Positions 6,721-48,386 of a stretch of DNA of 64,000 bases are shown here, one piece after another. The first letter of the stretch is position 1. Each line of letters begins with the position of its first letter. The translations under genes and the position numbers were made by a program. The stretch lies in IMG/VR virus record IMGVR_UViG_3300022926_000003, positions 1 to 64,000 of that record; one strand, 5' to 3'. The notes below the pieces were generated by a model that saw only the letters and a program-made list of their open reading frames with translations, was not told the DNA's origin and ran no database searches. This DNA is from a virus.

Positions 6721-6730
6721 ATTAAAAATT

Positions 6731-7261: not shown

Positions 7262-7262
7262 T

Positions 7263-8696: not shown

Positions 8697-8733
8697 TTTG
8701 TTTTTTTAAATTAAAATTATTATATTAAATGTT

Positions 8734-9675
8734 ATGCAAAAGTTACTTTACGTAACTCCTCACTTGTCAACAGGAGGGTTACCACAATATCTTTTAAAAA
8801 AAATAGAGTATTTTAAATCTCAATTTAACATTTATGTAATAGAATATCAAGATTTAAGTTGGGAATACGTTGTTCAAAAAAATAAGATAAAACAATTACT
8901 AGGGGAAAATAAATTAATTACCCTTTATGAAGATAAACAGGTTTTATTACAACACATAGAAAATATAAAACCTGATATTGTTCATTTTGAAGAAATTCCT
9001 GAGCATTTTATAGATACTATTATTTTAGATAAAATTTTTAATAAACCTAATCGTTCTTATTATATTTTATCTACTACACATTCTTCATACACTGACCCTA
9101 ACCAATTATCTTCACTACCAGACAAATTTATTTTAGTATCTGAGTGGAGTAAAAATAGATTTGAATCGGTAGTAAAAATTCCTTGTGATATTTGGGAATA
9201 TCCGATTGAGGATTTAATTCCTAATAAAGAAAAATACCAAAAAGAATTAGGATTTGATCCTAGTTATAAACATATAATTAATATAGGATTATTTACCCCT
9301 GGTAAAAACCAAAGTGAAATATTCGAAGTTGCAAAACACCTTACAGATAAAGATATAATATTCCACTTTATAGGAAACCAAGCAGGTAATTTTGAAGATT
9401 ATTGGGGTCCCTTAATGAAAAATAAACCTAAAAACTGTAAAGTATGGGGGGAAAGAAATGATGTAGAAAAGTTTTTACAAGCTGCTGATTTATTTTATTT
9501 TAGTAGTATTTTAGAGTTAAACCCCTTAGTAGTTAAAGAATCACTTTCCTACAAACTCCCTATTCTGATGAGAAAACTCCCCACCTACTTAAACCAGTAT
9601 GATAACAATAATTTAGTATCATATACAAATGGGGATGTTAATCAAACTAAAAATTTAATTTTAGAAAAATTATGA
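8734..9675 (+). CDS. Glycosyltransferase, GT4-like (GT-B fold)
   Basis: 313 aa. The N-terminus LLYVTPHLSTGGLPQYL is the typical first strand and glycine loop of GT4 enzymes. The C-terminal half has a Rossmann strand IINIGLFTPGKNQSE and the acid/hydrophobic donor-site region ELNPLVVKESLSYKLPIL. It follows the fibre block after a 37-nt gap rich in T and A. The stop overlaps the next start by ATGA, linking it to a TibC/BAHT-like enzyme. It probably transfers a sugar to a phage or host acceptor; donor and acceptor are unknown. Confidence 0.75.
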   Translation: MQKLLYVTPHLSTGGLPQYLLKKIEYFKSQFNIYVIEYQDLSWEYVVQKNKIKQLLGENKLITLYEDKQVLLQHIENIKPDIVHFEEIPEHFIDTIILDKIFNKPNRSYYILSTTHSSYTDPNQLSSLPDKFILVSEWSKNRFESVVKIPCDIWEYPIEDLIPNKEKYQKELGFDPSYKHIINIGLFTPGKNQSEIFEVAKHLTDKDIIFHFIGNQAGNFEDYWGPLMKNKPKNCKVWGERNDVEKFLQAADLFYFSSILELNPLVVKESLSYKLPILMRKLPTYLNQYDNNNLVSYTNGDVNQTKNLILEKL

Positions 9676-10835
9676 TATACGATAATTTAAGTTATAATGC
9701 TTCTTATAATACTAATGAAAATAAAATAAATATTTCTTTCATTGAAGGAGCTAAAGTTGAAATTAATGGTTCTTTTGATAAGAAATATTTAGTTAAGTTC
9801 TTTAATTATAAAACTAATGAACTTATATGGGAGGATACTATTAGCAATAACATGTGGACTTCCCCTAACCCTCAATATTTTATAAAGTGGAGGGTAGAAG
9901 TTTGGAATAATGGAAACAAAATAAAAGAACATATTTTTGATTGTACTAATAAAAGAGTTTATATTCATTTAGATTCTAAATCCATTGGAGATACATTAGC
10001 ATGGTTTCCTTATATAAAACAATTTCAAGAACAACATAATTGCAAAGTTGTGTGTTCTACATTTCATAATGATTGGTTTAAAAAAGAATATCCTAATGTT
10101 GAATTTGTAGAACCTAATACTATAGTGCATGATTTATATGCTATGTATAGAGTAGGATGGTTTTACGAAGAAGAAAATATCAATTTAAATAAAAATCCAA
10201 AAGAAGTAAAAACCCAACCCTTACAAAAAACTGCAAGTGACATATTGGGGTTACAATATCAAGAAATTAAACCTTCTATTTTTATTAAAAATAAAAAACG
10301 CAATATAAAAGAAAAATATGTTGTTATAGCCCCCCATGGAACCAAACATGCTTCTTATTGGAATAATAAGGGGGGGTGGCAACTTATAATTGATTGGTTA
10401 AATGAAACAGGATATAAAGTAGTTATGATTTCCTATGAAAAATTAGGAAATAGCTGGCATGATTCTAAACTAGGAGGAACCTTACAAAATGTAATAGATA
10501 AAACAGGTGACTATTCTTTCCAAGATAGATTCACAGACATTTTTAACGCTGAAGCTTTTGTAGGAACAGGTAGTGGTTTATCCTGGGTTAGCTGGGCCTT
10601 AAATACCCCTACAATTCTTATCTCAGGATTTAGTGATGAGTATACTGAATTCCAAAATTGTGAAAGAATAAGTGCCCCCTCTAATGTATGCCGTGGATGT
10701 TTTAATACTCATAAATTAGATGCAGGAGATTGGGAGTGGTGTCCCCACCATAAAGATACCCCCCGCCATTTTGAATGCTCAAAATCTATAACCCCAGATT
10801 TGGTTGCTAATGCTCTTGTTCGTATATTGGAGTGA
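9672..10835 (+). CDS. TibC/BAHT-like protein O-heptosyltransferase
   Basis: 387 aa. A beta-rich N-terminal domain (1-95) precedes a GT-B core starting KSIGDTLAWFPYIKQF (about 107). The C-terminal half has 'GTGSGLSWVSWALNTP' and a Cys-rich segment, CRGCF at about 339, WEWCP at about 357 and FECSKSI at about 368. This is the pattern of bacterial autotransporter heptosyltransferases (TibC, AAH, BAHT), whose cysteines bind an iron ion and which O-glycosylate serines of repetitive beta-helical passengers. A phage copy next to Ser/Thr-repeat fibre genes suggests virion-fibre glycosylation. Family assignment is from motif memory; substrate is inference. Confidence 0.75.
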   Translation: MIYDNLSYNASYNTNENKINISFIEGAKVEINGSFDKKYLVKFFNYKTNELIWEDTISNNMWTSPNPQYFIKWRVEVWNNGNKIKEHIFDCTNKRVYIHLDSKSIGDTLAWFPYIKQFQEQHNCKVVCSTFHNDWFKKEYPNVEFVEPNTIVHDLYAMYRVGWFYEEENINLNKNPKEVKTQPLQKTASDILGLQYQEIKPSIFIKNKKRNIKEKYVVIAPHGTKHASYWNNKGGWQLIIDWLNETGYKVVMISYEKLGNSWHDSKLGGTLQNVIDKTGDYSFQDRFTDIFNAEAFVGTGSGLSWVSWALNTPTILISGFSDEYTEFQNCERISAPSNVCRGCFNTHKLDAGDWEWCPHHKDTPRHFECSKSITPDLVANALVRILE

Positions 10836-12092
10836 ATGTTTTGGCTCATAGAGAATAATGAACAATTAACCCAACTTAGGGCAAAGAATTTTAAGAATGT
10901 TTTTATTGAACCTATATGGTCTAATGAAAACGTTCACCCCTACCATAGGGGAATCCAAGGGTTTTATATTAGGGAAGTAAACTATAAAAAAGGATTTATA
11001 GTTGTACTACAACATAGCGAAACCACTAGTTGTGGTATGGATGAAATTTATGATCTAATATATAGTTTTGATGAAATATTTGTAAGGGATAGGAAAGCAT
11101 TTTTAAATATAGCACCTAATAAAAAGCTTAGCGACATAGACTATATATATCCTACAGATATCCCAGACTCATTCCCATGCCATGAGTTTTTCTATAGGCA
11201 ATATCCTAACATAGCCAATATAGGTAGCATCATCCCCATAGTAAAGCATTATGAACGTTGTGAAACGATATTTCACGCGGTTAAGCATGTGTTTTCTATG
11301 GAGAAACCACCACACTTTGAGTTTTATAATATCAAAGCTACAAATGTGTTTTATTGGATTGAACAAGAGGGAATTAAGGTAGATCCCGAGTTATTTGAAA
11401 AGTATTTTAAAGCTAATGTTACCCCTTGGGACCATGTTTATACGTGTTTTAATCTAAAAACAACTACTACGCGACCCTCAAACACTTATGGAGGTGTAAA
11501 TTATATGGCGTTGGATAAAAAAAATGGTTGTCGAGAAGCGTTTATACCTAAAAACGACTTTTTATTAGAGATTGATATTAGTGCTTATCACCCTACATTA
11601 GCGGCACAATTGGTAGGATACAAATTTGAGCATGAAGACATACACCAAGCATTTGCTGACATGTATGGGGTAGATTATAAAAAGGCTAAGGAGTTAACTT
11701 TTAAACAGCTATACGGAGGGGTATTTAAGGAATATAAAGAGTTAGAATTCTTTAAACGTGTAGAAAAATATATAGAGGATATAAGTAGTAAGGAAGAATA
11801 CAAGTGTAAATCTGGATATGTTTTTAAAACAGATATGAAGCCTCAAAAACTGTTTAATTACATACTTCAAAACACGGAAACGTATTATAATGTGCTTATT
11901 TTAGAAGAAATCATACATATACTTAAAAATAGTGAAACTAAGATTGTTCATTATACTTATGATTCATTCTTGTTAGATGTATCTAAGGATGAGAAATATG
12001 TAGTGTTGTCTATCCTCGCTGTATTTAAGAAATATGGATTTTCTACTAAAGTAGAGGCAGGTCCCAATTATAGTTCTTTAGAAAGGGTGTAA
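10836..12092 (+). CDS. Divergent family A DNA polymerase-like protein
   Basis: 418 aa, starting one base after the previous stop. From about residue 210 the sequence follows the family A palm/fingers order: a 'TRPSNTYGGVNYMALDK' stretch, motif A LEIDISAYHPTLAAQLVG (Asp at about 247), 'EDIHQAFADMYGV', motif B KKAKELTFKQLYGG (about 281-296), and motif C HYTYDSFLL (Asp at about 376). Both putative metal-binding Asp residues are present. The N-terminal 170 residues could be a decayed 3'-5' exonuclease domain, but I see no DEDD set. The T4 replicative enzyme (family B) is also encoded here, so this is a second polymerase-type protein; reverse transcriptase or primase-polymerase activity is not excluded. 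Confidence 0.65.
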   Translation: MFWLIENNEQLTQLRAKNFKNVFIEPIWSNENVHPYHRGIQGFYIREVNYKKGFIVVLQHSETTSCGMDEIYDLIYSFDEIFVRDRKAFLNIAPNKKLSDIDYIYPTDIPDSFPCHEFFYRQYPNIANIGSIIPIVKHYERCETIFHAVKHVFSMEKPPHFEFYNIKATNVFYWIEQEGIKVDPELFEKYFKANVTPWDHVYTCFNLKTTTTRPSNTYGGVNYMALDKKNGCREAFIPKNDFLLEIDISAYHPTLAAQLVGYKFEHEDIHQAFADMYGVDYKKAKELTFKQLYGGVFKEYKELEFFKRVEKYIEDISSKEEYKCKSGYVFKTDMKPQKLFNYILQNTETYYNVLILEEIIHILKNSETKIVHYTYDSFLLDVSKDEKYVVLSILAVFKKYGFSTKVEAGPNYSSLERV

Positions 12093-12100
12093 TATTTATA
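12091..12100 (+). promoter_or_regulatory. AATATTTATA motif upstream of 12115
   Basis: Exact 10-mer starting at the stop codon of the polymerase-like gene, 14 nt before the next ATG. Putative late-type promoter. Confidence 0.4.
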
Positions 12101-12114
12101 TGTAAAGCCCAAAC

Positions 12115-12501
12115 ATGAACAACAAGCTATTTTGTACCTTTACCTCTTTAGAGGATTTAGAGAGGACATTATTGGAGGTAAAATCTAGCTACGATATACT
12201 CTATAAAAAGATTTTTGTTTTATATATAAAAAGTAATGACGAATATGTTTGCACATATAACGTAGAGCCGAGCAGCGTAGAGAGAATTTTACCCGAAACC
12301 ATATTAGTCCACAGAAAAAAAGAATCCAATACTTTATATACAATTAACGCCCTTAATGAACTAATTAAATCTTTAAACGGAGGGGTAGTTGATGTGAGAT
12401 ATAAGGTGAATTGGCAACATTACAGAAACACCATTTTGCTAACCCAGCACAATGAGTTAAGACAATTAAAGACAAGGATCCACAAGATCATTGAACTTTA
12501 A
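12115..12501 (+). CDS. Hypothetical protein
   Basis: 128 aa, unrecognised. It begins MNNKLFCTFTSLEDLERTL and ends RQLKTRIHKIIEL with a helical, basic C-terminus. It lies between the family A polymerase-like gene and gp32, and a hairpin terminator follows, so it closes a transcription unit. A role in replication is possible from position only. Confidence 0.6.
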   Translation: MNNKLFCTFTSLEDLERTLLEVKSSYDILYKKIFVLYIKSNDEYVCTYNVEPSSVERILPETILVHRKKESNTLYTINALNELIKSLNGGVVDVRYKVNWQHYRNTILLTQHNELRQLKTRIHKIIEL

Positions 12502-12505
12502 TTTG

Positions 12506-12530
12506 GGACCTTAAATTTAGGTCCTTATAT
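12506..12530 (+). terminator. Hairpin terminator upstream of gp32
   Basis: GGACCT (12506-12511) pairs with AGGTCC (12519-12524) around an AT loop, followed by the T-rich TTATATTT. Its place just after a stop codon fits a rho-independent terminator. Confidence 0.6.
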
Positions 12531-12562
12531 TTAATGAAAGTTACATTTTAAACAGTTATATT

Positions 12563-13369
12563 ATGGATTTAAACGCAATTCGCAGTAAGCTGAATTCCCT
12601 ACAGCAGCAAAATAAGGGAAATGGAGGCTCCGATCGGAGTCTATTTTGGAAACCAAGCATTGGTAAACAGGTAGTACGTATTGTACCTAATAAGTTTAAC
12701 AAAGCAAATCCTTTTACGGAAGTATACTTCCATTATGGGATTGGTGAACGTGTTATGATTTCACCTATCAATTATGGTGAAAAAGATCCAATTGTTGAGT
12801 TTGCGAAGCAACTTCGTACAACTAGTGATAAGGAAAATTGGCGTTTGGCTAAGAAGCTTGACCCCAAAATGCGTATCTTCGTACCTGTAATTGTACGTGG
12901 TGAAGAAGATCAAGGTGTTAAACTTTGGCAGTTTGGTAAGAATACTTACCTCGAATTCCTTTCACTTGCTGATGATGACGACATTGGCGACTACACAGAT
13001 ATTCATCAGGGACGTGATATTACAGTTGATACTGTAGGTCCTGATGTAACAGGAACCGCTTATAATAAGTCTTCGGTTCGTGTTAAGACTAAGCAAACCC
13101 CACTTGGTGATGCTGACCAGATTCAAAGCTGGTTAGATGATCAATCAAATCCTCTTGACGTGTTTAAGCGTTATTCATTTGAGGATATGAAAAACAATCT
13201 CCAAACATTCTTGGCACCTGAAGATGAAGCCCAAGAAGGAGATATTATTGATGAAGGAAAAGGCGACGACCTCCCTTTTGATAATGGGGGGTCTCAAAAC
13301 AATTATGCTCTAAAGACTCCCCCAACAAAAACGAGCAAGATAGACCAATTTGACGAATTATTTAGCTAA
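12563..13369 (+). CDS. 32: gp32-like single-stranded DNA-binding protein
   Basis: 268 aa. Coats ssDNA during replication and recombination. The N-terminus (MDLNAIRSKLNSLQQQ) resembles the cooperative-binding LAST-like region, followed by LFWKPSIGKQVVRIVPN and the OB-fold core. The tail after about residue 220 is acidic with a DELFS end, as expected for partner recruitment. No cysteine is visible, so the T4 zinc site (three Cys, one His) is absent. It is the first gene of a tight unit with uvsX, rnh and the helicase; the start ATG follows the 12506 terminator. Confidence 0.88.
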   Translation: MDLNAIRSKLNSLQQQNKGNGGSDRSLFWKPSIGKQVVRIVPNKFNKANPFTEVYFHYGIGERVMISPINYGEKDPIVEFAKQLRTTSDKENWRLAKKLDPKMRIFVPVIVRGEEDQGVKLWQFGKNTYLEFLSLADDDDIGDYTDIHQGRDITVDTVGPDVTGTAYNKSSVRVKTKQTPLGDADQIQSWLDDQSNPLDVFKRYSFEDMKNNLQTFLAPEDEAQEGDIIDEGKGDDLPFDNGGSQNNYALKTPPTKTSKIDQFDELFS

Positions 13370-14445
13370 TGCCTAGGAAAAAAGCATCACTTACAGAGGC
13401 AGTTTCAGCAGAGCTTAAAGCAAATTTCGACCTTAGCAAATTTAAGGAAAAGAAAATGCTTAATGCTAATGCTAAATTTAAGCCCCAACAATGGATCCCA
13501 CTTTCCCAAGCATTCCAGGATGTAACTTCAATTCCAGGCATACCTGCAGGACATATTGTTCTACTAAGAGGCCATTCTGATACCGGTAAGACAACCGCCT
13601 TAATTGAGGCGGCTGTCTCCGGCCAGAAACGAGGAATACTCCCTGTGTTTATTATCACAGAGATGAAATGGAGTTGGGAACATGCTAAAATGATGGGTCT
13701 TGAAATCAACGAAGTAGTTGATGAAGAAACTGGTGAAATTACAGATTATAATGGTAACTTTATTTATGTAGATAGAGAAACTATTAATTCTATTGAAGAC
13801 GTAGCAGCGTTTATTTTAGATTTGATTGACGAACAAAAGAAAGGTAACCTACCTTACGATCTATTGTTCTTGTGGGACTCAATTGGCTCAGTACCATGCG
13901 AAATGTCACTTAAATCAAATAAAAATAATAATGAGTGGAATGCTGGTGCTATGTCTACCCAATTCGGTAATAATGTAAACCAGCGTATTGTACTTTCACG
14001 TAAAGAAAGTAGTCCATATACTAATACATTAGTTTGTATTAATAAGGTGTGGACACTTAAACCTGAATCACCTATGGGTCAACCTAAGTTGATGAATAAA
14101 GGTGGATACGCTATGTGGTTTGATTCAACATTTGTAGTAACATTTGGCAATGTAATGTCTGCAGGTACATCTAAAATTAAAGCAATCAAAGATGGTAAGC
14201 AGGTAGAATTCGCTAAACGTACCAATGTTCAGATTGATAAAAATCACATTAATGGAGTTACTACCAGAGGTAAAATTGTTATGACACCTCATGGGTTTAT
14301 CAATGATAATGATAAAGAAATTAAAACCTATAAGGACGCTCATGCAGAAGCCTGGAGAGCTATTTTAGGGGGTATTGATTTTGATATCATGGAAGAAGAT
14401 CAGGAAGTACAAGATATTTCTCACTTCGAAAAAGAACCTGATTAA
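13369..14445 (+). CDS. uvsX: UvsX-like RecA recombinase
   Basis: 358 aa. Strand-exchange ATPase for recombination-dependent replication. Walker A GHSDTGKTT at about 68-76, Walker B-like LLFLWDSIGS at about 165, and the downstream MSTQFGNNVNQRIVLSRKES region typical of phage UvsX. The C-terminus is acidic (EEDQEVQD). It starts on the last base of the gp32 stop (TAATG) and shares one base with the next gene, so translation is coupled to the neighbours that feed and use it. Confidence 0.9.
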   Translation: MPRKKASLTEAVSAELKANFDLSKFKEKKMLNANAKFKPQQWIPLSQAFQDVTSIPGIPAGHIVLLRGHSDTGKTTALIEAAVSGQKRGILPVFIITEMKWSWEHAKMMGLEINEVVDEETGEITDYNGNFIYVDRETINSIEDVAAFILDLIDEQKKGNLPYDLLFLWDSIGSVPCEMSLKSNKNNNEWNAGAMSTQFGNNVNQRIVLSRKESSPYTNTLVCINKVWTLKPESPMGQPKLMNKGGYAMWFDSTFVVTFGNVMSAGTSKIKAIKDGKQVEFAKRTNVQIDKNHINGVTTRGKIVMTPHGFINDNDKEIKTYKDAHAEAWRAILGGIDFDIMEEDQEVQDISHFEKEPD

Positions 14446-21030: not shown

Positions 21031-21540
21031 ATGCACACAATTGAGGTTATCGAAGAGCAGTTGTCGCAACTCCAAAAATTGAATTACAATCAATTCTTTT
21101 GGTGGCGTAGATGGGGCCGTAAGGGTCAGTCTTTACACAATTATGCTCCATTGATTGACAAAATTCGTAATGGTGACTACGACCCAAGTCCTTATTTGTG
21201 GCAAATCCATTATTGTCAATGGGAAATTGATCAAAAATACAAAAAATATGAAGGTGATGGTCAAGCCCAAGCTGCTGAGACCCGTCTTGATAAAAACCGT
21301 CGCCGTCGTCTTGTTGATGATCATGAAAAGTATGAAAAGGAAAATCTGACCCAATTACGTAAAGATTTTACTACCACATTTCGTATGACCAAACAAGATT
21401 TTGATCATGATGTAGTTGAGGTTGGAGGTACACTGGAGGAATTTTATAATTACTGTGAAGACAAATACGGTAAATACAATCGTCCCACTACAGCACCCCG
21501 TAGAGGTCGACCACCAAAAAATAAAGAATTATATTTTTAA
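21031..21540 (+). CDS. Hypothetical protein with C-terminal AT-hook
   Basis: 169 aa, aromatic and basic. The N-terminal half contains NQFFWWRRWGRKGQS. The C-terminus carries APRRGRPPKNKE, a canonical AT-hook core (RGRP), which binds the minor groove of AT-rich DNA. It has its own promoter and precedes the deazaguanine genes by one base. A DNA-bound role, such as recruiting or regulating the modification genes, is possible but not shown. Confidence 0.65.
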   Translation: MHTIEVIEEQLSQLQKLNYNQFFWWRRWGRKGQSLHNYAPLIDKIRNGDYDPSPYLWQIHYCQWEIDQKYKKYEGDGQAQAAETRLDKNRRRRLVDDHEKYEKENLTQLRKDFTTTFRMTKQDFDHDVVEVGGTLEEFYNYCEDKYGKYNRPTTAPRRGRPPKNKELYF

Positions 21541-22359
21541 ATGAGTATAGAAGCATCAGCAAAGGGAGCAATAGTATCACATGAGATACCTTTTACTTAC
21601 CTACAAGCTAGTCTAGAATTTAACGACTATGACTATTTACTCCCTCATTTGTATGATCAATTTGAGGAGTACAAAGAATTCTTCCAAAGAAGCAACCATG
21701 CAGGTAAGCGTCACATTATAATGGATAATTCTCTCCATGAACTTGGAGCACCTTACTCAAAAGGTAGAATGATTTCTATTATTGAGGAAATAAAACCCGA
21801 TGAATTTATAGTACCAGATGCTTGGGAAGACGCCACCCAATCAATGCGCCAAGCTAAAGAATGGAGCTTTATTGAATTACCTGAAGGAGTAAAGAAAGTT
21901 GCAGTAGTACAAGGTAAATCATTTGATGACGTAGTAAAGTGTTATCAAACATATAAGTGGTTGGGTTACACCAAAATTGCATTTTCATATGGAGCTAGCT
22001 ATTATAACGATATATTCCCACATCCTAATAAGGATATTGGGAAAGCATTGGGACGTCAATTAGTTATTAGCAAAATGATTAATATGGGTCTTATTGGAAA
22101 AAGCGATAAAATTCATCTTTTAGGTTGTTCCCTCCCACAAGAGTTTTTATATTATAAGGATGTAAAACAAATTGTAAGCATAGACACTTCAAATCCTGTA
22201 ATGGCGGCATTTGATGGTACTCTTTATAATAATTGGGGTCTAGATTCTAAACCTAAAACTAAAATAGATGAAGTAATTGATGCTAAATTTGATGAAGCCA
22301 TATATGAAGCTATACGACATAATACTACATACTTTAAATTAATTAATAATATAACATGA
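21541..22359 (+). CDS. dpdA: TGT-fold, DpdA-like 7-deazaguanine DNA transglycosylase candidate
   Basis: 272 aa. The order of conserved blocks follows tRNA-guanine transglycosylase: MDNSLHELG (61-69), VPDAWEDA (91-98), VVQGKS (122-127, compare IVQG of TGT), and LLGCSLPQEFLYYKD then IDTSNP (nucleophile-position Asp at about 215). The TGT zinc motif CxCxxC is absent, as expected for DNA-acting or phage relatives. The gene overlaps queC by ATGA. With QueC, QueD, QueE and FolE nearby, exchange of guanine in DNA for a preQ0-type base is the best inference. A tRNA-acting TGT is the alternative. Confidence 0.75.
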   Translation: MSIEASAKGAIVSHEIPFTYLQASLEFNDYDYLLPHLYDQFEEYKEFFQRSNHAGKRHIIMDNSLHELGAPYSKGRMISIIEEIKPDEFIVPDAWEDATQSMRQAKEWSFIELPEGVKKVAVVQGKSFDDVVKCYQTYKWLGYTKIAFSYGASYYNDIFPHPNKDIGKALGRQLVISKMINMGLIGKSDKIHLLGCSLPQEFLYYKDVKQIVSIDTSNPVMAAFDGTLYNNWGLDSKPKTKIDEVIDAKFDEAIYEAIRHNTTYFKLINNIT

Positions 22360-23192
22360 ATAAACAAGCAGTTTTATCTTTAAGTGGAGGAATGGACAGC
22401 TCCACAGTTTTGCTAAGACTATTAGCAGAAGGCTACGAGGTTACAGCTTTGAGTTTTGATTATGGACAAAAACATAAAGTTGAACTCTCCCGTGCTCGTG
22501 AATTAGTAAGCCACCTTAATACAGTTAGACTTGAACAATCCCCACTAGGTGAATTTAGGGAAAAATACCCAGAAATTAAATATGGAGTAATTAAACTTGA
22601 TGGTTTGGCTCCTATGCTTAATAGTGCCCTTGTAGAAGGTGGAGATGAGGTGCCTGAAGGACACTATGAACAGGAAAACATGAAGGAAACAGTTGTTCCT
22701 AATAGAAATAAAATTTTCTCATCAATAATTCAAGCGGTAGCACTATCAATAGCAAATGAAAAAGATACTGAAGTACATATTGCGATGGGTATTCACGCAG
22801 GTGATCATGCTATATACCCCGATTGTAGACAAGAGTTCAGGGACGCTGACTATGCAGCTTTCACCGAAGGTAATTGGAACGCTGGGCGCGTTACCTATCA
22901 TACCCCTTACCTCAGTGGGGATAAGTATGATATTTTGCTTGATGGAAGAAGATGCTGCGATGAATTGGGACTTGATTTCAACCGAGTTTATTCCCTTACA
23001 AATACTTCTTATAAGCCCCTTAGTTTTGGTGATAAGTGGTACAGCGACTATAAATCTGCTTCTTCGGTGGAACGTGTCGAAGCGTTTATTAAGTTGGGGA
23101 CAGAGGATCCGGTACAATATGCTGATGAGAGAGGACCCGTTACATGGAATACTGTAAAACAACATGTTGAACAAGTTTTAGCTGAAGCCTAA
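22356..23192 (+). CDS. queC: QueC-like 7-cyano-7-deazaguanine synthase
   Basis: 278 aa. Converts 7-carboxy-7-deazaguanine to preQ0 with ATP and ammonia. The PP-loop SLSGGMDSS is at 8-16, with FDYGQKHKVEL, VVPNRNKIF and GDHAIYPDCRQEF as in the family. The C-terminal zinc ribbon is altered: where bacterial QueC has TCY and CGxCxxC, this protein reads NTSYKP and GDKWYSDYKSASSVER, so all four zinc cysteines are missing. It sits between the TGT-fold gene and queD with overlaps on both sides. Confidence 0.88.
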   Translation: MNKQAVLSLSGGMDSSTVLLRLLAEGYEVTALSFDYGQKHKVELSRARELVSHLNTVRLEQSPLGEFREKYPEIKYGVIKLDGLAPMLNSALVEGGDEVPEGHYEQENMKETVVPNRNKIFSSIIQAVALSIANEKDTEVHIAMGIHAGDHAIYPDCRQEFRDADYAAFTEGNWNAGRVTYHTPYLSGDKYDILLDGRRCCDELGLDFNRVYSLTNTSYKPLSFGDKWYSDYKSASSVERVEAFIKLGTEDPVQYADERGPVTWNTVKQHVEQVLAEA

Positions 23193-23650
23193 TGTTTATA
23201 TCAACTAAAGTATTTGATGGGTTTAGCTGTGTGTTTCGTCAAGCTAAAGCAGAAGGCACACATTGTAGATTTCTCCATGGTTATGGAATCTCGTTTAAAG
23301 TATGGTTTAAAGGGGAACTAGACGAACGTAATTGGGTTTGGGATTTTGGGGGTATGAAACGTGCTAAAACCGAAATTGATGGTATGAATCCTAAAGCTTG
23401 GATGGACCATATGTTTGATCATACTATGCTTGTAGCTGAAGACGATCCATTCCTAGAATCATTTCGTAGAATGGATGAAGCAGGTGTAATTCAACTTAGA
23501 GAAATACCAGCAACTGGAGCAGAACGTTTTGCTCAGTATATTTATGAGAAACTTAACAAGTTTGTATTAGAAGAAACAGATGGACGTGTTAAGGTTATGC
23601 AAGTAGAATTTAGAGAACACGGAAAAAACACAGCAATCTATGCTGAATAA
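23192..23650 (+). CDS. queD: QueD-like 6-carboxytetrahydropterin synthase
   Basis: 152 aa. Makes 6-carboxytetrahydropterin from dihydroneopterin triphosphate, the product of FolE. The block HCRFLHGYG matches the catalytic Cys and CxxxHGH region, and MFDHTML matches the catalytic Asp/His. Two of the three usual zinc histidines are replaced: AAH becomes CVF, and HGH becomes HGY. Either zinc is bound differently or the enzyme is divergent. It starts on the last base of queC. Confidence 0.8.
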   Translation: MFISTKVFDGFSCVFRQAKAEGTHCRFLHGYGISFKVWFKGELDERNWVWDFGGMKRAKTEIDGMNPKAWMDHMFDHTMLVAEDDPFLESFRRMDEAGVIQLREIPATGAERFAQYIYEKLNKFVLEETDGRVKVMQVEFREHGKNTAIYAE

Positions 23651-23678
23651 ATAAAAGTTAATAACAAAAATCAAAATT

Positions 23679-24299
23679 ATGAAAAAAACAATTATGGCCT
23701 TTGGGTTGGCCTTAACCACCCTAGTTAGTTCTGCACAAACAACTGTTGTTGATGTTATTGTAAATAGCGAAGACCACACCTTGTTAGAAGCTGCAGTAGT
23801 AGAAGCAGGATTAGTTGAAGCTTTAAGCGACACAACAGGAACATTTACAGTATTTGCACCTACAGATAGTGCATTTATTACTTTAGCAACCTCACTCCAA
23901 CTCGAACCCACTGATCTATTAGAGTTACAAAACTTGGCAGATATTCTTACATATCATGTTGTGGGAACCACAGCTCTAAGTACTGATCTGTATGATGGTA
24001 TGGAAGTAACAGCACTAAACAATGGTACTTTAACTATTGGTGTAGATAGCACAGGAGTCACAGTTGAATATGCCATGGTCACAGTTGCTGACCTTGTCAC
24101 AGATAATGGTGTTGTTCATGTTATTGATGCTGTTCTTGTACCTAGTAGTACTAATTCAATACTAGAGCTAGAAAATAAAACCCCACAAAATAATATTTAC
24201 TATAATATTATGGGTCAAGAAATTGATAGCTACGATCAAATTCCCTTTAACTCCATTTATATTAAAAATGGTGAAAAGTTTCTAAAGATCGAAAGATAA
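23679..24299 (+). CDS. Secreted fasciclin (FAS1) protein with type IX sorting tail
   Basis: 206 aa. A signal peptide MKKTIMAFGLALTTLVSSAQ precedes one FAS1 domain (about 22-152) with the FTVFAPTDSAF box and the H2-type VVHVIDAVL ending. After a linker, the C-terminus (NIYYNIMGQEIDSYD to FLKIER) has the form of a type A T9SS sorting domain (Y-N-x-x-G-Q-E near the start, basic end). FAS1 domains mediate adhesion. It is inserted between queD and queE, splitting the modification operon. Export through the host type IX system is inferred. Confidence 0.75.
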   Translation: MKKTIMAFGLALTTLVSSAQTTVVDVIVNSEDHTLLEAAVVEAGLVEALSDTTGTFTVFAPTDSAFITLATSLQLEPTDLLELQNLADILTYHVVGTTALSTDLYDGMEVTALNNGTLTIGVDSTGVTVEYAMVTVADLVTDNGVVHVIDAVLVPSSTNSILELENKTPQNNIYYNIMGQEIDSYDQIPFNSIYIKNGEKFLKIER

Positions 24300-24300
24300 T

Positions 24301-25074
24301 ATGCTTAAAAGGATAGAAGATTACGATAAAGTATTACCTGTATTAGAGGTATATCGATGCGTGCAAAGTGAGGGCTCCCGTTTCGGGCGCCCCACTATTG
24401 CCGTTCGAACTACAGGATGTACCCACCGCTGTTGGTTTGGTGAAGGTGGGTGGTGTGATTCGTGGTATACTTCAATCCACCCTGAAAAAGGTACGTTTAC
24501 ATTTAATGACATTATCAATATTTATGATGAGAATCCTCAAGTAAAAGAGATGATGTTAACAGGGGGTTCACCAACAATGCATGCTGCCCTTGTAAATGAA
24601 CTTACCCATTTTGCCAACGAAAGAGGAATTCTCATTACAATCGAAACCGAAGGGTCTCACTTCGTGGAAACGGATTTTCCACTTGGTCTCGTATCCCTTA
24701 GCCCTAAGTTTTCTAATTCTGTCCCTCGTGTGGGTATTACTACTCCCGGTGGTAAAGTGGTTGATGAAAGGTTTGTCACTCAGCATAACAAGTTTAGACT
24801 CCATTATGAGAACATTCAGAAAATGATTGATTTTCATAGTGATTATCATTATAAACCAGTTTGGGATGGTACCGATGAGTGTTTAGCTGAAATTGAGGAA
24901 TTTAGAGTTAAAATGAATATTCCTAAAAATAAAACATTTGTTATGCCTGCAGGGGATACAAGAGAAACACTAGTTGAAATGTACCCTAAAGTATTTGAAA
25001 TGGTCGCTGAGCATGGATATAATATGACTGGTCGAGACCATATTATAGCTTATAATACAGAACGTGGAGTTTAA
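24301..25074 (+). CDS. queE: QueE-like radical SAM 7-carboxy-7-deazaguanine synthase
   Basis: 257 aa. Converts carboxytetrahydropterin to 7-carboxy-7-deazaguanine. The N-terminus has the QueE pattern VQSEGSRFGRPTIAVRTTGC. The iron-sulfur motif reads CTHRCWFGEGGWCDSW, CX3CX7C instead of the usual CX3CX2C, an insertion of five residues before the last Cys. TGGSPTMH matches the SAM-binding GGEP-like region. It is followed by a strong terminator, ending the transcription unit. Confidence 0.85.
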   Translation: MLKRIEDYDKVLPVLEVYRCVQSEGSRFGRPTIAVRTTGCTHRCWFGEGGWCDSWYTSIHPEKGTFTFNDIINIYDENPQVKEMMLTGGSPTMHAALVNELTHFANERGILITIETEGSHFVETDFPLGLVSLSPKFSNSVPRVGITTPGGKVVDERFVTQHNKFRLHYENIQKMIDFHSDYHYKPVWDGTDECLAEIEEFRVKMNIPKNKTFVMPAGDTRETLVEMYPKVFEMVAEHGYNMTGRDHIIAYNTERGV

Positions 25075-25093: not shown

Positions 25094-25121
25094 AAAAAGG
25101 GCACCTTCGGGTGCCTTTTTT
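25094..25121 (+). terminator. Rho-independent terminator after queE
   Basis: AAAAAGGGCACC, loop TTCG, GGTGCCTTTTTT: an 8-bp GC stem capped by a C(TTCG)G tetraloop with an A-tract before and T-tract after. It may act on both strands. Confidence 0.92.
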
Positions 25122-25131
25122 AATATTTATA
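25122..25131 (+). promoter_or_regulatory. AATATTTATA motif upstream of the metalloprotease
   Basis: Exact 10-mer directly after the queE terminator and 24 nt before the ATG at 25156. Its position between a terminator and a new gene strongly suggests a promoter. Confidence 0.55.
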
Positions 25132-25155
25132 ACCGAAAGTTACAACCAAACCGCT

Positions 25156-27153
25156 ATGAAAAAACTGATTTTCCTATTTTTACTACTTATGACATTGCCC
25201 CTTTATGGGCAAGAAAGATGTGGCACAGATGCTCTTTTTGAGCAACAGCTACAAGATCCTAAATTTAAACGAAGCTATTTAAAACTTGAAAAAATAGCTA
25301 AGGAAGCAGAAGAAGCTAAAAGGGCTTCATCTATGCCTGATCTTCCTATAACTGTACCGGTTATTGTCCATATTATTCACCTTGGTGAGCCCTATGGAGT
25401 GGATAACCATTTACCTATTGAATATGTTCAAGAAGCTATTGATAATGCCAACCAAAACTTTGCAGGTGAGTTTAGTGACGACCCCACAGCAAATACAGAA
25501 ATAGATTTTTGTATTGCAAATTTATCTACTAGTGGTGCTCCAATTGAAGGTATTAGATATTATAATTGGGATGATTTAGGTTTCGGTGACATTTCTGATT
25601 TTTACTTAAATAATGTAAATGTTTCTAATTTAATTGGGTATGATCGTAGTAATTATTGTAATATTTTTGTTGCACCTTTTACTAGTCCTTTAGGATTTGC
25701 TTATTTAGCCCCTTCAAATTATGGGGTATTTGTAGGTACAAATTACTTTGGAATAACTGGGTATCAAAATAATTATGCTTTAAATAGAACACTAGTACAC
25801 GAACTAGGACATTATTGTGGGTTATTCCATACATTCCACAATACTTCTACGTGTAATCCTACTGGTAATTGCGTCAGCCAAGGTGATGCTGTATGCGATA
25901 CCCCACCAACTACAGGTTCTGCGGGATGTGGACCTTTATCATGTCCTGAAACATTGGTGGAGAATTTCATGGATTATTCTAATGACCAATGCATGGATAG
26001 TTTTACCCAGGGTCAAGCTTTAAGAATGCTTAGCAGACTAGAAACAGCTCGCCCAGGGGTAGTAAATAACACACTAGCTTGTGGTGCTATTGATGGTGTA
26101 GATGCTGGTGTAAGTGGTGTTACTATACCAAATCTTGGTTGTGACCCTACACAAGATATAGAATTTATATTAACTAGTTATGGTGATACTTTAACTGAAA
26201 CCACTATTAATTATACAATTAATGGTGAAGAGTTATTTATGATTTGGACAGGTAATTTAGGATTTGGTGAAAGTGAAACTATAACTATACCTAATTTTGA
26301 AGTAGGTTATGGTCTAGTAGATATTGAAATTAATGTAGATGCCTTAGGAGATGTCTACGCAGATAATAACACTCAGTCAGTTCAACTTGACAATTATGAA
26401 GGTTCTCTTATTGATATTAATATACAATTTGACGCCCTTCCCTACGGATTCCATTGGGTTTTATACGAGGCTGATAGTTTAAACAATCCTATAGGAGATG
26501 CTATTAGTGGGGTAGGAAGCCAGACATATACTAATGCTGATTATTCTTGTGAATCTGAAACTTATAGTTTTTGTTTACCTGAAGGTAACTATGTTTTAGT
26601 GTTAGAAGATATTTTTGGTAATGGGTTACATTATTATTGTGTAGATAATCCTGATGAGTATGGGCTTATCTCAATTATAAGTGGGAATGATACATTAAAC
26701 TCAATCCAAGGAGGGTGGGCTGATGGTGAACCTTTACCCTTTTATGTAATACCCTCTTTTTGTCCCCCTAACGATTGTCCATGGGATGTAGATGGTAATG
26801 GATTTGTATGGGTAAGTGATATACTACAAATTATACAATATTATGGACTTGAAGTAGAACCTTGTAACCAATTTGATATCAACCAAGATGGGGTTGTAGG
26901 GGTAGATGATATATTAGATGCTATTGCTAATTTTGATACTGAATGTGGAACAGGTTTAATGTCTCCCCCATTAGATAGTTTTAGACGATTAGTACAAGAG
27001 GCAGGAGAAGAAGTTGTTACTCAAAAACTATATAATTTGCAAGGACAAGAAGTACAATATAATGATTATCTAGATACAGGAATCTATTTTATAGTTCAAG
27101 AATGGACAAATGGTTTTGTGATTAGTAAAAAAATCTATCACCAACAACATTAA
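25156..27153 (+). CDS. Secreted M43 (pappalysin-type) metalloprotease with type IX sorting tail
   Basis: 665 aa from the ATG at 25156, which gives a clean signal peptide MKKLIFLFLLLMTLPLYGQ; a longer reading from 25111 would start inside the terminator. The zinc motif HELGHYCGLFH begins at about 215, and the Met-turn ENFMDYSND follows. After beta domains come two dockerin-like calcium repeats (DVDGNGFVWVSDIL, DINQDGVVGVDDIL; about 545-590). The C-terminus, KLYNLQGQEVQYND to KKIYHQQH, is a type A T9SS sorting domain. It probably cuts surface or matrix proteins outside the host. It overlaps the next gene by one base. Confidence 0.85.
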   Translation: MKKLIFLFLLLMTLPLYGQERCGTDALFEQQLQDPKFKRSYLKLEKIAKEAEEAKRASSMPDLPITVPVIVHIIHLGEPYGVDNHLPIEYVQEAIDNANQNFAGEFSDDPTANTEIDFCIANLSTSGAPIEGIRYYNWDDLGFGDISDFYLNNVNVSNLIGYDRSNYCNIFVAPFTSPLGFAYLAPSNYGVFVGTNYFGITGYQNNYALNRTLVHELGHYCGLFHTFHNTSTCNPTGNCVSQGDAVCDTPPTTGSAGCGPLSCPETLVENFMDYSNDQCMDSFTQGQALRMLSRLETARPGVVNNTLACGAIDGVDAGVSGVTIPNLGCDPTQDIEFILTSYGDTLTETTINYTINGEELFMIWTGNLGFGESETITIPNFEVGYGLVDIEINVDALGDVYADNNTQSVQLDNYEGSLIDINIQFDALPYGFHWVLYEADSLNNPIGDAISGVGSQTYTNADYSCESETYSFCLPEGNYVLVLEDIFGNGLHYYCVDNPDEYGLISIISGNDTLNSIQGGWADGEPLPFYVIPSFCPPNDCPWDVDGNGFVWVSDILQIIQYYGLEVEPCNQFDINQDGVVGVDDILDAIANFDTECGTGLMSPPLDSFRRLVQEAGEEVVTQKLYNLQGQEVQYNDYLDTGIYFIVQEWTNGFVISKKIYHQQH

Positions 27154-28628
27154 TGAAGAAATTATTATTAGCTTTACTTTTTTTACCATTTAGTATATTA
27201 GGACAATGTGATCTTGAAATACTTGATTTTAATGTTAATGATGCTACAATTACTGTAGCTTTTAACAATACAAATAACTGTGGGGGGACAGGTGGGCCTG
27301 ATGGTATATCTGAAATTCAATTTGGGTTTCAAGCAATAGATAGTAACTGTAATGCTATGAATATTGGTTGGGATTTCCCTAGTGGAATATCTATCCCTGA
27401 TAACAGTAATCATCCTGGATGGTTATACTCAGCTACTACAACTGAAATATTTGGTAATTGGACTAATAACTATGGTCCTGAATTACAACCCCCTTACTAT
27501 ACGGGGGATACTTTAACTTTTCCTTTGGATAATGTTTATCAATCAACAAATATCAATACAACTTCTCAACTTGCCAATAATTTACAATATTGGTATGATG
27601 AAGGTTATAGCATTCAAGCAGTAATATGGCAGATTAGCTATGGGCCTACAATGTATGCTGAAGATGGGGGTTGGGCAGAAGTAGGGGCAAATGGTGATGG
27701 GACCAGTTATGGGAGTGGGTTGTATGAAGATACTAACTTTTTAGACAATTGGATAATCGTAGGACCTTGCGAGGAACCCGAAGAACCATTAATATTAGAT
27801 GAATGTAATAACCCAATAGCTTGTAATTACAACAACCAATGGTTTGAACCAGGTGGGTTTTGTATTTATTGTGATACTCCTAATGGTGAAGAACTATGTA
27901 ATGAATACCAAAACTCAGACGGTTATTGGGATTTTTATTTTAATGCTTTTGATTGTCCTGAAGAAGTTGAGTGTGATACTGTTTACATAGAACTACCCCC
28001 TGATACTATATATGAAATAGATACTCTTATTATTACTGTAACTGAAATTGATACACTTTATATAGAGCTACCTCCCGATACAATTATTGTAACTGAAATT
28101 GATACACTCTATATAGAACTACCCCCGGACACAGTTACTGAAACTATATTTATAACAGATACAATTACTGTAACTGAGACAGAATTTATTTTTGTAACTG
28201 ATACTGTAATTGAAACAGAATACATCTATTCTGTAGATACAATTTATATAATACAAAGTGATACAGTTACTATATATGAGTTTGTAGAAATAGATTGTGA
28301 AACAGGTTTACCTTGTAGTGAAATTAGGAATAAAGAATGTAATGTTTACATTCCTAACGCCTTCACCCCAGATAATGATGGGTATAATGATGGGTGGGAG
28401 ATAGTACTAGATCCTGAATGTTGGACTGATGTTAAGGTTCAAGTAATAAGTAGATGGGGAAATATAGTATGGGAATCTTATGATGTAAATAACTTAGTTT
28501 GGAATGGTAATTTTAGAGGGGGTGATTATTATGTACAAAATGAAATGTATTTGTGGTGGTTCCAAGCAAGGAAAGTAGGGACAGCTGAAGTAAAAGAATT
28601 AAGAGGACACGTTATAATTTTACGTTAA
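27153..28628 (+). CDS. Secreted stalk protein with gliding-motility-type (T9SS type B) C-terminal domain
   Basis: 491 aa. Signal peptide MKKLLLALLFLPFSILGQ. A beta-rich domain (20-210) and a Cys-rich stretch (about 218-275) are followed by a stalk of repeats such as VTEIDTLYIELPPDT (about 275-385). The last 95 residues, CNVYIPNAFTPDNDGYNDGW through SRWGNIVWES to the HVIILR end, match the CHU_C/gliding-motility-associated domain used as a type B T9SS signal. It follows the metalloprotease without a gap. A surface adhesin anchored by the host type IX system is the likely role. Confidence 0.8.
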   Translation: MKKLLLALLFLPFSILGQCDLEILDFNVNDATITVAFNNTNNCGGTGGPDGISEIQFGFQAIDSNCNAMNIGWDFPSGISIPDNSNHPGWLYSATTTEIFGNWTNNYGPELQPPYYTGDTLTFPLDNVYQSTNINTTSQLANNLQYWYDEGYSIQAVIWQISYGPTMYAEDGGWAEVGANGDGTSYGSGLYEDTNFLDNWIIVGPCEEPEEPLILDECNNPIACNYNNQWFEPGGFCIYCDTPNGEELCNEYQNSDGYWDFYFNAFDCPEEVECDTVYIELPPDTIYEIDTLIITVTEIDTLYIELPPDTIIVTEIDTLYIELPPDTVTETIFITDTITVTETEFIFVTDTVIETEYIYSVDTIYIIQSDTVTIYEFVEIDCETGLPCSEIRNKECNVYIPNAFTPDNDGYNDGWEIVLDPECWTDVKVQVISRWGNIVWESYDVNNLVWNGNFRGGDYYVQNEMYLWWFQARKVGTAEVKELRGHVIILR

Positions 28629-32041: not shown

Positions 32042-32554
32042 ATGGAACAAGCAATAAGTGAAAAAGACTTAGACTTTAAATTAAAGTTAATAGCTAAAAA
32101 AATTAATGACGAACATAAAGATGATCCTACCCCTGTAGTATTAGTTTGTATACTAAATGGTGGATTTATGTTCTTTAGTGATTTGGTAAAACAAATTACA
32201 ATCCCTATTGAAATAGATTTTATTCGTTGCAAATCTTACTTTGGTAGAAAACAAGGTGATTTAGTAGTTAGTAAAGACTTAGAAACTAAAATTAAAGGCA
32301 AACATGTTTATCTTGTAGACGATATTTTAGATTCAGGTAATACTATGAAAGCAGTCTCTAAATTCCTCTCAGTTAAAGAACCAAAAACAGTTACTCCTGT
32401 TGTAGCAATTTATAAGGAAAGCGGGGATTTTGATAAAGTTTATCATATCTTATACCAACCTACTGATTCTGTATTTGATCCTTGGTATATAGGTTATGGT
32501 ATGGATGATGATAAGGGCCACAATAGAAATTTAAGTACAATTTATACTATATAA
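32042..32554 (+). CDS. Purine (hypoxanthine-type) phosphoribosyltransferase
   Basis: 170 aa. The PRPP-binding motif VYLVDDILDSGNTM (about 90-103) and the early VLVCILNGGFMFFSDLV loop are those of hypoxanthine/guanine phosphoribosyltransferases. The end contains FDPWYIGYGMDD, also seen in HPRT. It would salvage purine bases released from host nucleic acid. It shares one base with folE. Confidence 0.85.
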   Translation: MEQAISEKDLDFKLKLIAKKINDEHKDDPTPVVLVCILNGGFMFFSDLVKQITIPIEIDFIRCKSYFGRKQGDLVVSKDLETKIKGKHVYLVDDILDSGNTMKAVSKFLSVKEPKTVTPVVAIYKESGDFDKVYHILYQPTDSVFDPWYIGYGMDDDKGHNRNLSTIYTI

Positions 32555-33249
32555 TGGAAAACAAACGAAGAAAGTTACACAACGATATTGAGTGTGTACC
32601 TACAGGTTATGCAAATGGGGCTGCAATGGATCGTCCACTTACCCCCCATGAAAAAGAAGTTATGATTAATGAAGCAGCAGATGCCTATAGTAGGTTTCTA
32701 GATGCTTTAAAATGTGATTGGAGAAATGATCCCAATTCAATGGAAACCCCAAAACGAGTAGCAAAGGCATATGTAAATGATTTATGGGCGGGTAGGTATG
32801 ATGGATTCACTGATATTACGTCTTTTCCTAGTGATGGTTATGACGGTATCGTCATTGAACGTAATATTCCCCTTACTAGTATGTGTTCCCATCATCACCA
32901 AACTATTCATGGAGTTGTTCATATTGGTTACGTTGCAGGTGCAGAAGGAAGAGTAATTGGTTTGTCTAAATTAAACCGGATTGTAGAACACTTTGGTCGT
33001 AGAGGAGCAATCCAAGAACAGCTTACATCTGCTATTCACCAAGGTGTAGAAAAAGTATGTGAAGGTAATTTAGGGGTTATTGTTACTGTAGTTGCAACCC
33101 ACAACTGTGTAAGTTGCAGAGGAATTAAGCACTCAGGTGCAGCGATGGTTACCACTAAAGCAAGTGGAGTATTTAGAGATGATAGTAATCAAGCCCGTAA
33201 AGAGTTTTTTGATAGTTTAAAAATCAATAACGGAGGGCATCAAATATAA
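32554..33249 (+). CDS. folE: GTP cyclohydrolase I
   Basis: 231 aa. Converts GTP to dihydroneopterin triphosphate, the first step to folates and 7-deazaguanines. Zinc ligands are intact: SMCSHHHQ (about 109-116) and HNCVSCRGIKH (about 183-193). GRVIGLSKLNRIVEHF is the family core. It is separated from the que genes by 7.5 kb but supplies QueD's substrate, and folate for ThyX. It overlaps the phosphoribosyltransferase gene. Confidence 0.92.
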   Translation: MENKRRKLHNDIECVPTGYANGAAMDRPLTPHEKEVMINEAADAYSRFLDALKCDWRNDPNSMETPKRVAKAYVNDLWAGRYDGFTDITSFPSDGYDGIVIERNIPLTSMCSHHHQTIHGVVHIGYVAGAEGRVIGLSKLNRIVEHFGRRGAIQEQLTSAIHQGVEKVCEGNLGVIVTVVATHNCVSCRGIKHSGAAMVTTKASGVFRDDSNQARKEFFDSLKINNGGHQI

Positions 33250-35314: not shown

Positions 35315-37000
35315 ATGTACAAAAAATGTTATGCTGAATATGCTGGTAAAAACCGGTATAAGATACATCTATGGGAAGAAGATAATTATAATATAATTCC
35401 TTGGAGCAATCCTGCTTATGTTGAGTGCTCTGAAAATGAAGCTCAATACCAGGGTTTGAAGGGGGAATGGTTAAAGAAAACCTATAAATGGGACAAAGAT
35501 ACCCCTGGCCTCCACTTCCATGACATGCCTGCTTACCAAAAGTTCCTTATTGAAAAATATGGAACTAATGATGAAGTGTCTAAGGGACACCGTGAAGTAT
35601 TTTTTGATATTGAGATTGAAATGGGTGGAGCACTTACAGAAGAGTATATTAAAGAAGCTCCTAAACCTGTAACTTCAATTGCTTGGTATGATAAAACACC
35701 TGATGAATGGGTAATTCTTATTTTAGATAAAAAGAATCAAATTAAACATACTAAGGGACACAAAGAAATTATCCCTTGTGCTAGTGAAGAAGAACTACTT
35801 AGTAAGTTTATAGAAAAATTTAGAGAAATAAACCCAGACATCCTTGTAGGATGGAATAGTGATTACTTTGATATTCCTTATCTTTATTTTAGGATTAGTA
35901 GAGTGCTAGGTGAAGATTTTGCTAATGCCTTATCTCCTATAGATGTTGTAAAAGACGAAAGTGCTTGGAACCGCAACGGATGGCTCAATATTGCAGGAGT
36001 TGAATCACTAGACTATATGAAACTACATAAAAAGTTTAGTTTCCGAGATGAACCCTCAATGAGACTAGATGCTATTGGAGAAAAATATGTTAATTTAGGT
36101 AAAGTTGAATATGATGGTAATCTAGATCGTTTATTCGAAGATGATATCCAAAAGTTTATTCAATACAACTTTCGAGATGTAGAAATACTTAAGGCACTAG
36201 ATGAAAAATTTGAATATATTGGCCTTGTAAAAAACCTATCACATAAAGGAAAACACAATTATGGAGAGGTTTATGCAAACACTAAAACCCAAGACGGAGC
36301 AATTTCAGCTTATTTGTTAGGACAAAATATTGTCCCACCTTCTAGAGATAAAAATCCAATTCATAAAAAGGGTTATGCAGGTGGTTATCTATTTTGTCCT
36401 GCTGCAGGTTTGTATAAGTACATGTTTGATGAGGATCTAACTTCACTGTATCCTTCAATTATTATGTCTCTTAACATTGGTAAAGAAACATATGTTGGTA
36501 GAGTAATGGATTTGTTTGATGATCGAAATAATCGTTTAGGGTTAAATGATCTTAAAGCAATGGACCCTAATAAAGAATTGTGTGTTGAAAACCTACAACG
36601 TAAACAAACTTATATTCCCTGTAAAAAAATTATTGAAACTATAGAAAATAATAACTTAGCCATCTCAGCTAATGGTGTAATGTTTAGAACTGATAAGCCT
36701 TCTGTTTTGTCAACTATACTTGCTAAATGGTTTGATGAGCGAGTGGAATATAAAGGTTATATGAAAAAAGCATATAAAGCTGGTGATAAAGAAAAGGGTG
36801 CGTTTTGGCATCAACGTCAACACACAATGAAAATTTTGTTAAATAGCTTGTATGGTGCAACTGCTCTTGGTAGTTTTAGATACGGTAACGTAATCCTTAG
36901 TGAGGCAATCACTCTATCTGGTCAGCGTATTATTCAAGAAAGTGCTTTGTGTGCTAATAGACATATGAATAAAGTAATTAGAGGAGAAGTAAAACTATGA
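35315..37000 (+). CDS. 43A: DNA polymerase family B, N-terminal part (exonuclease, palm motif A, fingers)
   Basis: 561 aa. The 3'-5' exonuclease motifs are visible (EVFFDIEIE at about 94; GWNSDYFDIPYLYFR; YNFRDVEIL). Polymerase motif A DEDLTSLYPS carries Asp at about 374, and motif B KILLNSLYGA starts at about 506. The ORF stops in ATGA at 36997-37000, before motif C, which is in the next ORF. The pair together is about 870 aa, the length of T4 gp43. The natural reading is a two-piece polymerase; a sequencing indel is the alternative. Confidence 0.88.
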   Translation: MYKKCYAEYAGKNRYKIHLWEEDNYNIIPWSNPAYVECSENEAQYQGLKGEWLKKTYKWDKDTPGLHFHDMPAYQKFLIEKYGTNDEVSKGHREVFFDIEIEMGGALTEEYIKEAPKPVTSIAWYDKTPDEWVILILDKKNQIKHTKGHKEIIPCASEEELLSKFIEKFREINPDILVGWNSDYFDIPYLYFRISRVLGEDFANALSPIDVVKDESAWNRNGWLNIAGVESLDYMKLHKKFSFRDEPSMRLDAIGEKYVNLGKVEYDGNLDRLFEDDIQKFIQYNFRDVEILKALDEKFEYIGLVKNLSHKGKHNYGEVYANTKTQDGAISAYLLGQNIVPPSRDKNPIHKKGYAGGYLFCPAAGLYKYMFDEDLTSLYPSIIMSLNIGKETYVGRVMDLFDDRNNRLGLNDLKAMDPNKELCVENLQRKQTYIPCKKIIETIENNNLAISANGVMFRTDKPSVLSTILAKWFDERVEYKGYMKKAYKAGDKEKGAFWHQRQHTMKILLNSLYGATALGSFRYGNVILSEAITLSGQRIIQESALCANRHMNKVIRGEVKL

Positions 37001-48158: not shown

Positions 48159-48165
48159 TTTCGCG

Positions 48166-48175: not shown

Positions 48176-48191
48176 TCAAAATATATTAGCT

Positions 48192-48374: not shown

Positions 48375-48386
48375 TAAAAAAACAAA

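Follow-up and report, generated by a model that had tools for sequence, protein, structure and literature searches.

A 64,000-nt stretch of a virus genome (positions 1 to 64,000 of the 100,680-bp IMG/VR virus record IMGVR_UViG_3300022926_000003; hereafter the window) appears to encode a self-contained system that would exchange guanine in DNA for a 7-deazaguanine base and recycle the guanine set free. We put the probability of this reading at roughly two in three. The transglycosylase gene at 21541 (dpdA) overlaps queC and is followed by queD and queE. A second gene pair combines folE with hpt, which encodes a purine phosphoribosyltransferase (PRT); the two share one base at 32554, where the hpt stop codon lies over the folE start. 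The transglycosylase adds a member to a known family; what is new is the coupling to a purine PRT, and the PRT is the most informative neighbour of the cluster. Complete guanine replacement by a transglycosylase is hard to account for, as every insertion frees one guanine. We lean towards the view that a purine PRT is an overlooked, recurrent part of phage 7-deazaguanine DNA modification, in which a guanine loop drives the exchange towards completion. If this is true, a coupled salvage enzyme would explain how the exchange is pulled and fed.

A preliminary description of the window had reported a protein with the fold of tRNA-guanine transglycosylase (TGT) and no zinc motif, overlapping queC and followed by queD and queE, with folE at 32554. 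Open reading frames (ORFs) and family matches agree with this account, which omitted an AT-hook gene, a fasciclin gene, a hairpin and the PRT.

A DpdA-like enzyme with a full deazaguanine pathway

Window proteins were assigned to families with Pfam, PHROGs and NCBIfam. The dpdA product matches phrog_19058 over residues 11-269 (E 3e-41), and the homologues from Campylobacter phage CP220 and Flavobacterium phage vB_FspM_immuto_2-6A (immuto) fall in the same PHROG. A tblastn search of 50,697 phage records found 25, the best being immuto (39% identity; annotated as a DNA guanine transglycosylase). The CP220-group Campylobacter phages showed 35-36% identity, and their homologues carry the label "hypothetical" wherever annotated. 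The product has no match to the Pfam TGT family (only DUF6610, below cut-off), and a sequence search of the PDB gave nothing relevant. Its AlphaFold2 model (pLDDT 87.3, pTM 0.85) matches TGTs in Foldseek (E 7e-9), with tied Z values of 17.8-18.1 to arcTGT 1iq8, TGT 1r5y and DpdA 7ui4. The likeness to bacterial TGT and bacterial DpdA (PDB 7ui4) is one of fold, whereas identity is 13-14% over ~236 residues and the window enzyme has 272 amino acids (aa) and no zinc motif. The zinc CxCxxC motif occurs in none of the 103 distinct family members of at least 235 aa. DNS and DTSNP are each present in 102 of them; we equate these, though not by superposed residues, with TGT D102 and D280.

By structure model the enzyme has the TGT fold, and by hidden Markov model (HMM) comparison it belongs to phrog_19058; it is of neither the DpdA1 nor the DpdA2 type. 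The DpdA of phage 9g falls in phrog_887 and the DpdA2 of phage nt-1 in phrog_10773. An hhalign comparison of the window family with DpdA1 (9g type) gave a probability of 0.3% (E 0.22), and BLASTP of the window product against nt-1 DpdA2 (YP_008125322) gave E 2.1; neither result is significant. The NCBIfam DpdA model was rejected as a test: the window product reaches 15.4 bits where the cut-off is 200, and since the 9g (13.9) and VpKK5 (16.0) proteins fail likewise, the model does not test phage DpdAs. We take phrog_19058, the immuto/CP220 subfamily, to be the one called DpdA3, which Cui and colleagues reportedly tied to complete guanine replacement in 2023. The finding also suggests a role for a PHROG that had none assigned and whose members abound in viral metagenomes.

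Relatives of dpdA were recovered from 96 viral loci, 89 of which have queC in view, so the gene cluster is not a chance arrangement. These loci came from searches with the dpdA product and with its alignment, the latter represented by the best 80 of at least 582 matches. Genes within loci were detected with HMMs built mostly from the window's own phage group, that for gpt-like PRTs from one sequence. The preliminary description had argued from a DpdA-like TGT-fold enzyme and a full pathway from GTP to deazaguanine to DNA modification, and this is borne out: the DNA-modification reading of the cluster is well supported and very likely correct, and we infer that DNA is the substrate of the 21541 enzyme.

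A purine phosphoribosyltransferase beside or fused to FolE

The hpt product passes the gathering threshold of PF00156, the type I phosphoribosyltransferase superfamily (84.7 vs 26.3 bits), and its sequence matches hypoxanthine-guanine phosphoribosyltransferases (HPRTs) in the PDB (E 5e-24). All 73 distinct hpt proteins and all 12 gpt-like ones have an unbroken motif for phosphoribosyl pyrophosphate (PRPP). The Asp of this motif presumably contacts purine N7, an atom that 7-deazaguanine lacks, so that a 7-deazapurine would, judging from the motif, be an unlikely hpt substrate.

folE was in view in 43 of the 96 dpdA-selected loci, and in 42 of these a PRT lies within 2.5 kb of it (33 hpt-type, 9 gpt-like), in 39 cases under 150 nt away. 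The pairs are all same-strand; hpt precedes folE in 33 of 33, and the gpt-like gene stands before it in 5 and after it in 4. A PRT is found near folE in 29 of 30 clusters at 90% identity and in 9 of 10 at 70%. We also examined 77 PRT-selected loci (the best 80 of 259 hpt relatives, minus 3 already among the dpdA-selected loci). A que, folE or dpdA gene is present in 74, and folE in 67, within 150 nt of the PRT in 62. The exceptions are L174, L178 and L179; the L174 contig has a PTPS gene elsewhere and the L178 contig has none. Four loci (L171, L172, L175 and L180) have hpt, folE, dpdA, formyltransferase and QueF genes in a row, an immuto-like content with an hpt-type PRT.

The HPRT-like and Gpt/XPRT-like subfamilies belong to the same superfamily but are distant from each other (hhalign E 4e-9). 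They take each other's place on a DpdA tree of 57 proteins, which omits 44 loci without a PRT view, L004, proteins shorter than 235 aa and copies at the 95% identity level: each PRT label requires 8 changes, 5-6 of them forced by well-supported branches.

Fusion is a further form of this coupling. A tblastn search with the immuto PRT (40 records) hit the N-terminus of 295-300-aa "GTP cyclohydrolase" proteins in phages of Vibrio, Stenotrophomonas and Sphingomonas, and a search with the fused PRT domain (38 records) added many Pseudomonas phages. The four PRT-FolE fusions read each have que genes and a DpdA1-type gene as neighbours. In four references the fused domain retains RGG, DD[IL]ID[ST]GxT and W[VI]V[FW]PWE, the PRPP and hood motifs. 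The VpKK5 domain matches phrog_8995 (phosphoribosyl transferase; E 9e-9), and Pfam detection of the fused domain is weak or none. Viral loci selected by FolE carry the fusion in 29 of 49 cases with VpKK5 as query and in 30 of 80 with 9g, and a DpdA1 gene is in view for 56 of the 59; 17 and 50 loci, respectively, have no PRT, and 3 have a separate one. Elsewhere, folE is followed by an XPRT gene in a Brevundimonas phage and gpt by queE in a jumbo Pseudomonas phage, and the PRT of Cellulophaga phage phiST has no que gene nearby; all three genomes carry a PTPS gene. We are inclined to think that phages acquired a PRT on several occasions, giving rise to hpt-folE pairs, gpt-folE pairs and PRT-FolE fusions, and that it is near-universal in the window's phage group.

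The window resembles immuto in dpdA, zinc-less queC (63% identical), queD, queE and folE, and in a PRT gene upstream of folE; unlike the window, immuto has QueF and a formyltransferase, and its PRT is of the gpt-like rather than the hpt-like kind. The Firehammervirus phages CP220 and CPt10 of Campylobacter share a dpdA homologue (36% identical), queC, queD and the lack of a QueF above cut-off, but they have no PF00156 PRT, their queC has the zinc motif, their genes are scattered and the homologue is annotated as hypothetical. The DpdA1 phages VpKK5, Quinobequin-P09, MMDA13 and ply2008005c likewise couple folE to a purine PRT domain beside que and transglycosylase genes, whereas their PRT is fused to FolE and their dpdA is of another subfamily.

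Extent of replacement and identity of the base

CP220 and CPt10 are reported to carry dADG, the deoxynucleoside of the amide base 7-amido-7-deazaguanine (ADG), in place of 100% of their dG (PMC8306585), and replacement is complete in Firehammervirus (PMC10273834); a 2019 view had grouped the dADG-bearing Campylobacter phages as lacking DpdA (PMC6884629). Because phrog_19058 is common to the window and CP220, near-complete replacement is the better prediction, and we consider complete or near-complete replacement of guanine in the window phage likely. The preliminary description had stated that phages with DpdA and preQ0 genes replace a share of guanines, which does not fit CP220, the nearest characterised relative that lacks QueF.

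No QueF above cut-off was found in the window's record or in four relatives (the weak match in the window's record lies inside folE), and no formyltransferase or GATase_6 in the record or its two 109.7-kb relatives. From the lack of QueF and an amidotransferase, the preliminary description had concluded that 7-cyano-7-deazaguanine (preQ0) is the most likely inserted base. The gene absence holds; the inference to preQ0 does not, because CP220 lacks the same genes (no QueF above cut-off, no GATase_6) yet carries the amide. Gene content was rejected as a guide to the base on these grounds; ArcS was not searched for. PreQ0 and ADG are equally good candidates, each held tentatively, and a base other than these two is doubtful.

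Proposed mechanism and alternatives

FolE, QueD, QueE and QueC would convert GTP to a 7-deazaguanine as the free base, either preQ0 or the corresponding amide, ADG. After replication, the 21541 enzyme would excise guanine from phage DNA and insert the deazaguanine via a covalent Asp intermediate, much as TGT acts on tRNA. The exchange would probably reach most or all guanines, with one guanine freed per insertion. The folE-linked PRT would then combine the freed guanine with PRPP to give GMP, which host kinases would return to GTP and so to FolE. Such salvage would recycle precursor and take away the product able to drive the exchange backwards, and the AT-hook protein may keep the transglycosylase on DNA. 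Genes, fold, motif conservation and neighbourhood conservation are observed; the DNA substrate, the extent of replacement, the base and the roles of the PRT and the AT-hook protein are deduced from them. We estimate that ~34,900 guanines would be freed per copy of the 100.7-kb genome and ~3.5 million for 100 progeny, a quantity comparable to the GTP pool of one cell. Guanine recycling is a plausible role for the PRT and, on balance, the one we favour. A literature search on a PRT in the deazaguanine pathway found nothing relevant; the key 2023 study of Cui and colleagues lies outside its coverage, so absence from print is not shown. Two PRT-related papers concern nicotinate and nicotinamide enzymes instead.

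Several observations weigh against a base-exchange system with guanine recycling. Modified DNA from the window phage has not been seen, and a fold with tied Z values cannot tell DNA-acting from tRNA-acting enzymes. At 118.5 bits, hpt falls under the TIGR01203 HPRT equivalog cut-off of 150. PRT labels are clustered relative to shuffles, and in parts of the DpdA tree the type of PRT follows descent. Locus L119 has folE and no recognised PRT among the ORFs read near it, and many locus counts include close relatives. No guanylate kinase was identified among the window genes tested, which are not all of its genes. PF00156 is absent from CP220, MA9V-3, CAjan, nt-1, Dp-1 and 9g. As fully modified CP220 lacks a PF00156 gene, even complete replacement can do without a PRT, which was rejected as a strict marker of that state.

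We think it unlikely that the PRT performs ordinary purine salvage and travels with nucleotide genes by chance. Purine salvage is common, hpt and folE lie close together in some bacteria and the phiST PRT stands apart from que genes, but the position beside folE outlasts repeated subfamily swaps and becomes a fusion in other lineages, and the PRT-selected loci carry deazaguanine genes in 74 of 77 cases and the linkage to folE in 67. A less probable route is that the PRT turns preQ0 or ADG into a ribonucleotide that is then reduced and polymerised, so that replacement occurs during DNA synthesis. Complete replacement would then be explained without a processive exchanger, ribonucleotide reductase genes are present in the window, and PRTs acting on preQ0 are known from toyocamycin biosynthesis. 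However, the HPRT signature of the PRT is complete and includes the Asp that should bind N7, which 7-deazapurines lack; it is fused or adjacent to GTP-consuming FolE, not to QueC or a polymerase; the exchange enzyme and its motifs are conserved in the group; and CP220 is fully modified with no PRT.

The genes could also boost queuosine in host tRNA, with the 21541 enzyme acting as a tRNA transglycosylase. This role has been raised for phages lacking DpdA (PMC6884629), and it accords with the TGT fold and with Z values tied between tRNA enzymes and DpdA. The lack of a Pfam TGT match, of the zinc motif in all 103 family members and of a QueF above cut-off in the record speaks against it, as do the nearest relatives, which are annotated as a DNA enzyme or come from a phage with modified DNA; we regard it as very improbable.

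A zinc-less QueC clade and an AT-hook protein

The queC product keeps SGGxDS, YxQxHxxE, VPxRN and YPDC and has no zinc motif of the form C(x)8CxxCxxC. The zinc motif was found in none of 131 homologous fragments of at least 255 aa, copies included, and 124 of these keep all other signature motifs plus SDYKSASS. It is present in QueC of CP220, VpKK5, Dp-1, 9g and Quinobequin; the zinc cysteines are also missing from QueC of the Stenotrophomonas ply2008005c and MMDA13 phages. A published account (PMC13329287) states that QueC requires zinc and cannot do without Tyr189 of the zinc region. In the zinc-less proteins, TSY stands where others have CY (alignment by eye). Judged by its sequences, this clade seems functional without a zinc site thought to be required. 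A link between zinc loss and an amide product was considered and rejected: CP220 (dADG) keeps the motif, and immuto, with QueF, lost it.

In 82 of the 96 dpdA-selected loci (42 of 53 clusters at 90%) the AT-hook gene is no more than 3 kb from dpdA, and of 114 homologous fragments, counted with duplicates, 101 have an xGRP motif near the C-terminus. The model of the protein has no PDB match at E<=0.001 (best E 1.5); matches to PHROGs are weak only (best 0.0095), and the best among viral structure models is an uncharacterised protein (E 0.0019). A search run without a positive control detected no copy of the protein in immuto, CP220 or MA9V-3. It is a possible DNA-binding partner of the transglycosylase.

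Gene layout and other features of the window

The genes from 21031 to 25074 are all on the same strand (Table 1); queC overlaps dpdA by 4 nt and queD overlaps queC by 1 nt. The fasciclin gene is present in 4 of 26 dpdA-relative loci at E<=1e-3 (L008, L009, L010 and L028) and is probably a passenger in the que cluster. The consensus scan found 10 hairpins overall vs 7.8 expected, and the one downstream of queE has the longest stem.

Table 1. Features of the que cluster and the hpt-folE pair in the window.
Feature	Positions	Strand	Evidence
AT-hook protein, 169 aa, all-helical, C-terminal PRRGRPPK	21031..21540	+	model pLDDT 89.6; neighbourhood conservation
dpdA, 272 aa, TGT-fold predicted DNA guanine transglycosylase, immuto/CP220 type	21541..22359	+	phrog_19058 E 3e-41
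queC, zinc-less clade	22356..23192	+	PF06508 E 3e-36; alignment
queD, 6-carboxytetrahydropterin synthase	23192..23650	+	phrog_2389 E 8e-39
Fasciclin-domain gene	23679..24299	+	PF02469 E 2e-27
queE, radical SAM 7-carboxy-7-deazaguanine synthase	24301..25074	+	phrog_2076 E 2e-46
Terminator-like hairpin 3' of queE, 12-bp stem and T run	25094..25121	+	consensus scan
hpt, hypoxanthine/guanine-type phosphoribosyltransferase	32042..32554	+	PF00156 E 6e-24; TIGR01203 E 2e-34, under cut-off
folE, GTP cyclohydrolase I, pathway step one	32554..33249	+	PF01227 E 3e-41

The window encodes a CHU_C type IX secretion-signal protein, which suggests a Bacteroidota host. This protein lies in a region of secreted-type proteins (25111-28628) together with an M43 metallopeptidase that has a weak dockerin-like match. 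A family B DNA polymerase is apparently split into an exonuclease and N-terminal part (35315-37000) and a C-terminal part (36997-37923) with a 4-nt overlap. We also identified a phage-encoded chaperonin Cpn60 (40174-41799; E 1e-73), a group of five glycosyltransferase-type genes with a hexapeptide-repeat transferase (46609-53684) and six tRNA genes (58422-60321), including Ile (tat) and two Leu. Among the dpdA relatives, locus L005 carries four large tandem paralogues (4936-13437) with common N-termini, some with repeated DTSN-type segments; they alternate with small paralogous ORFs and look tail-fibre-like by eye.

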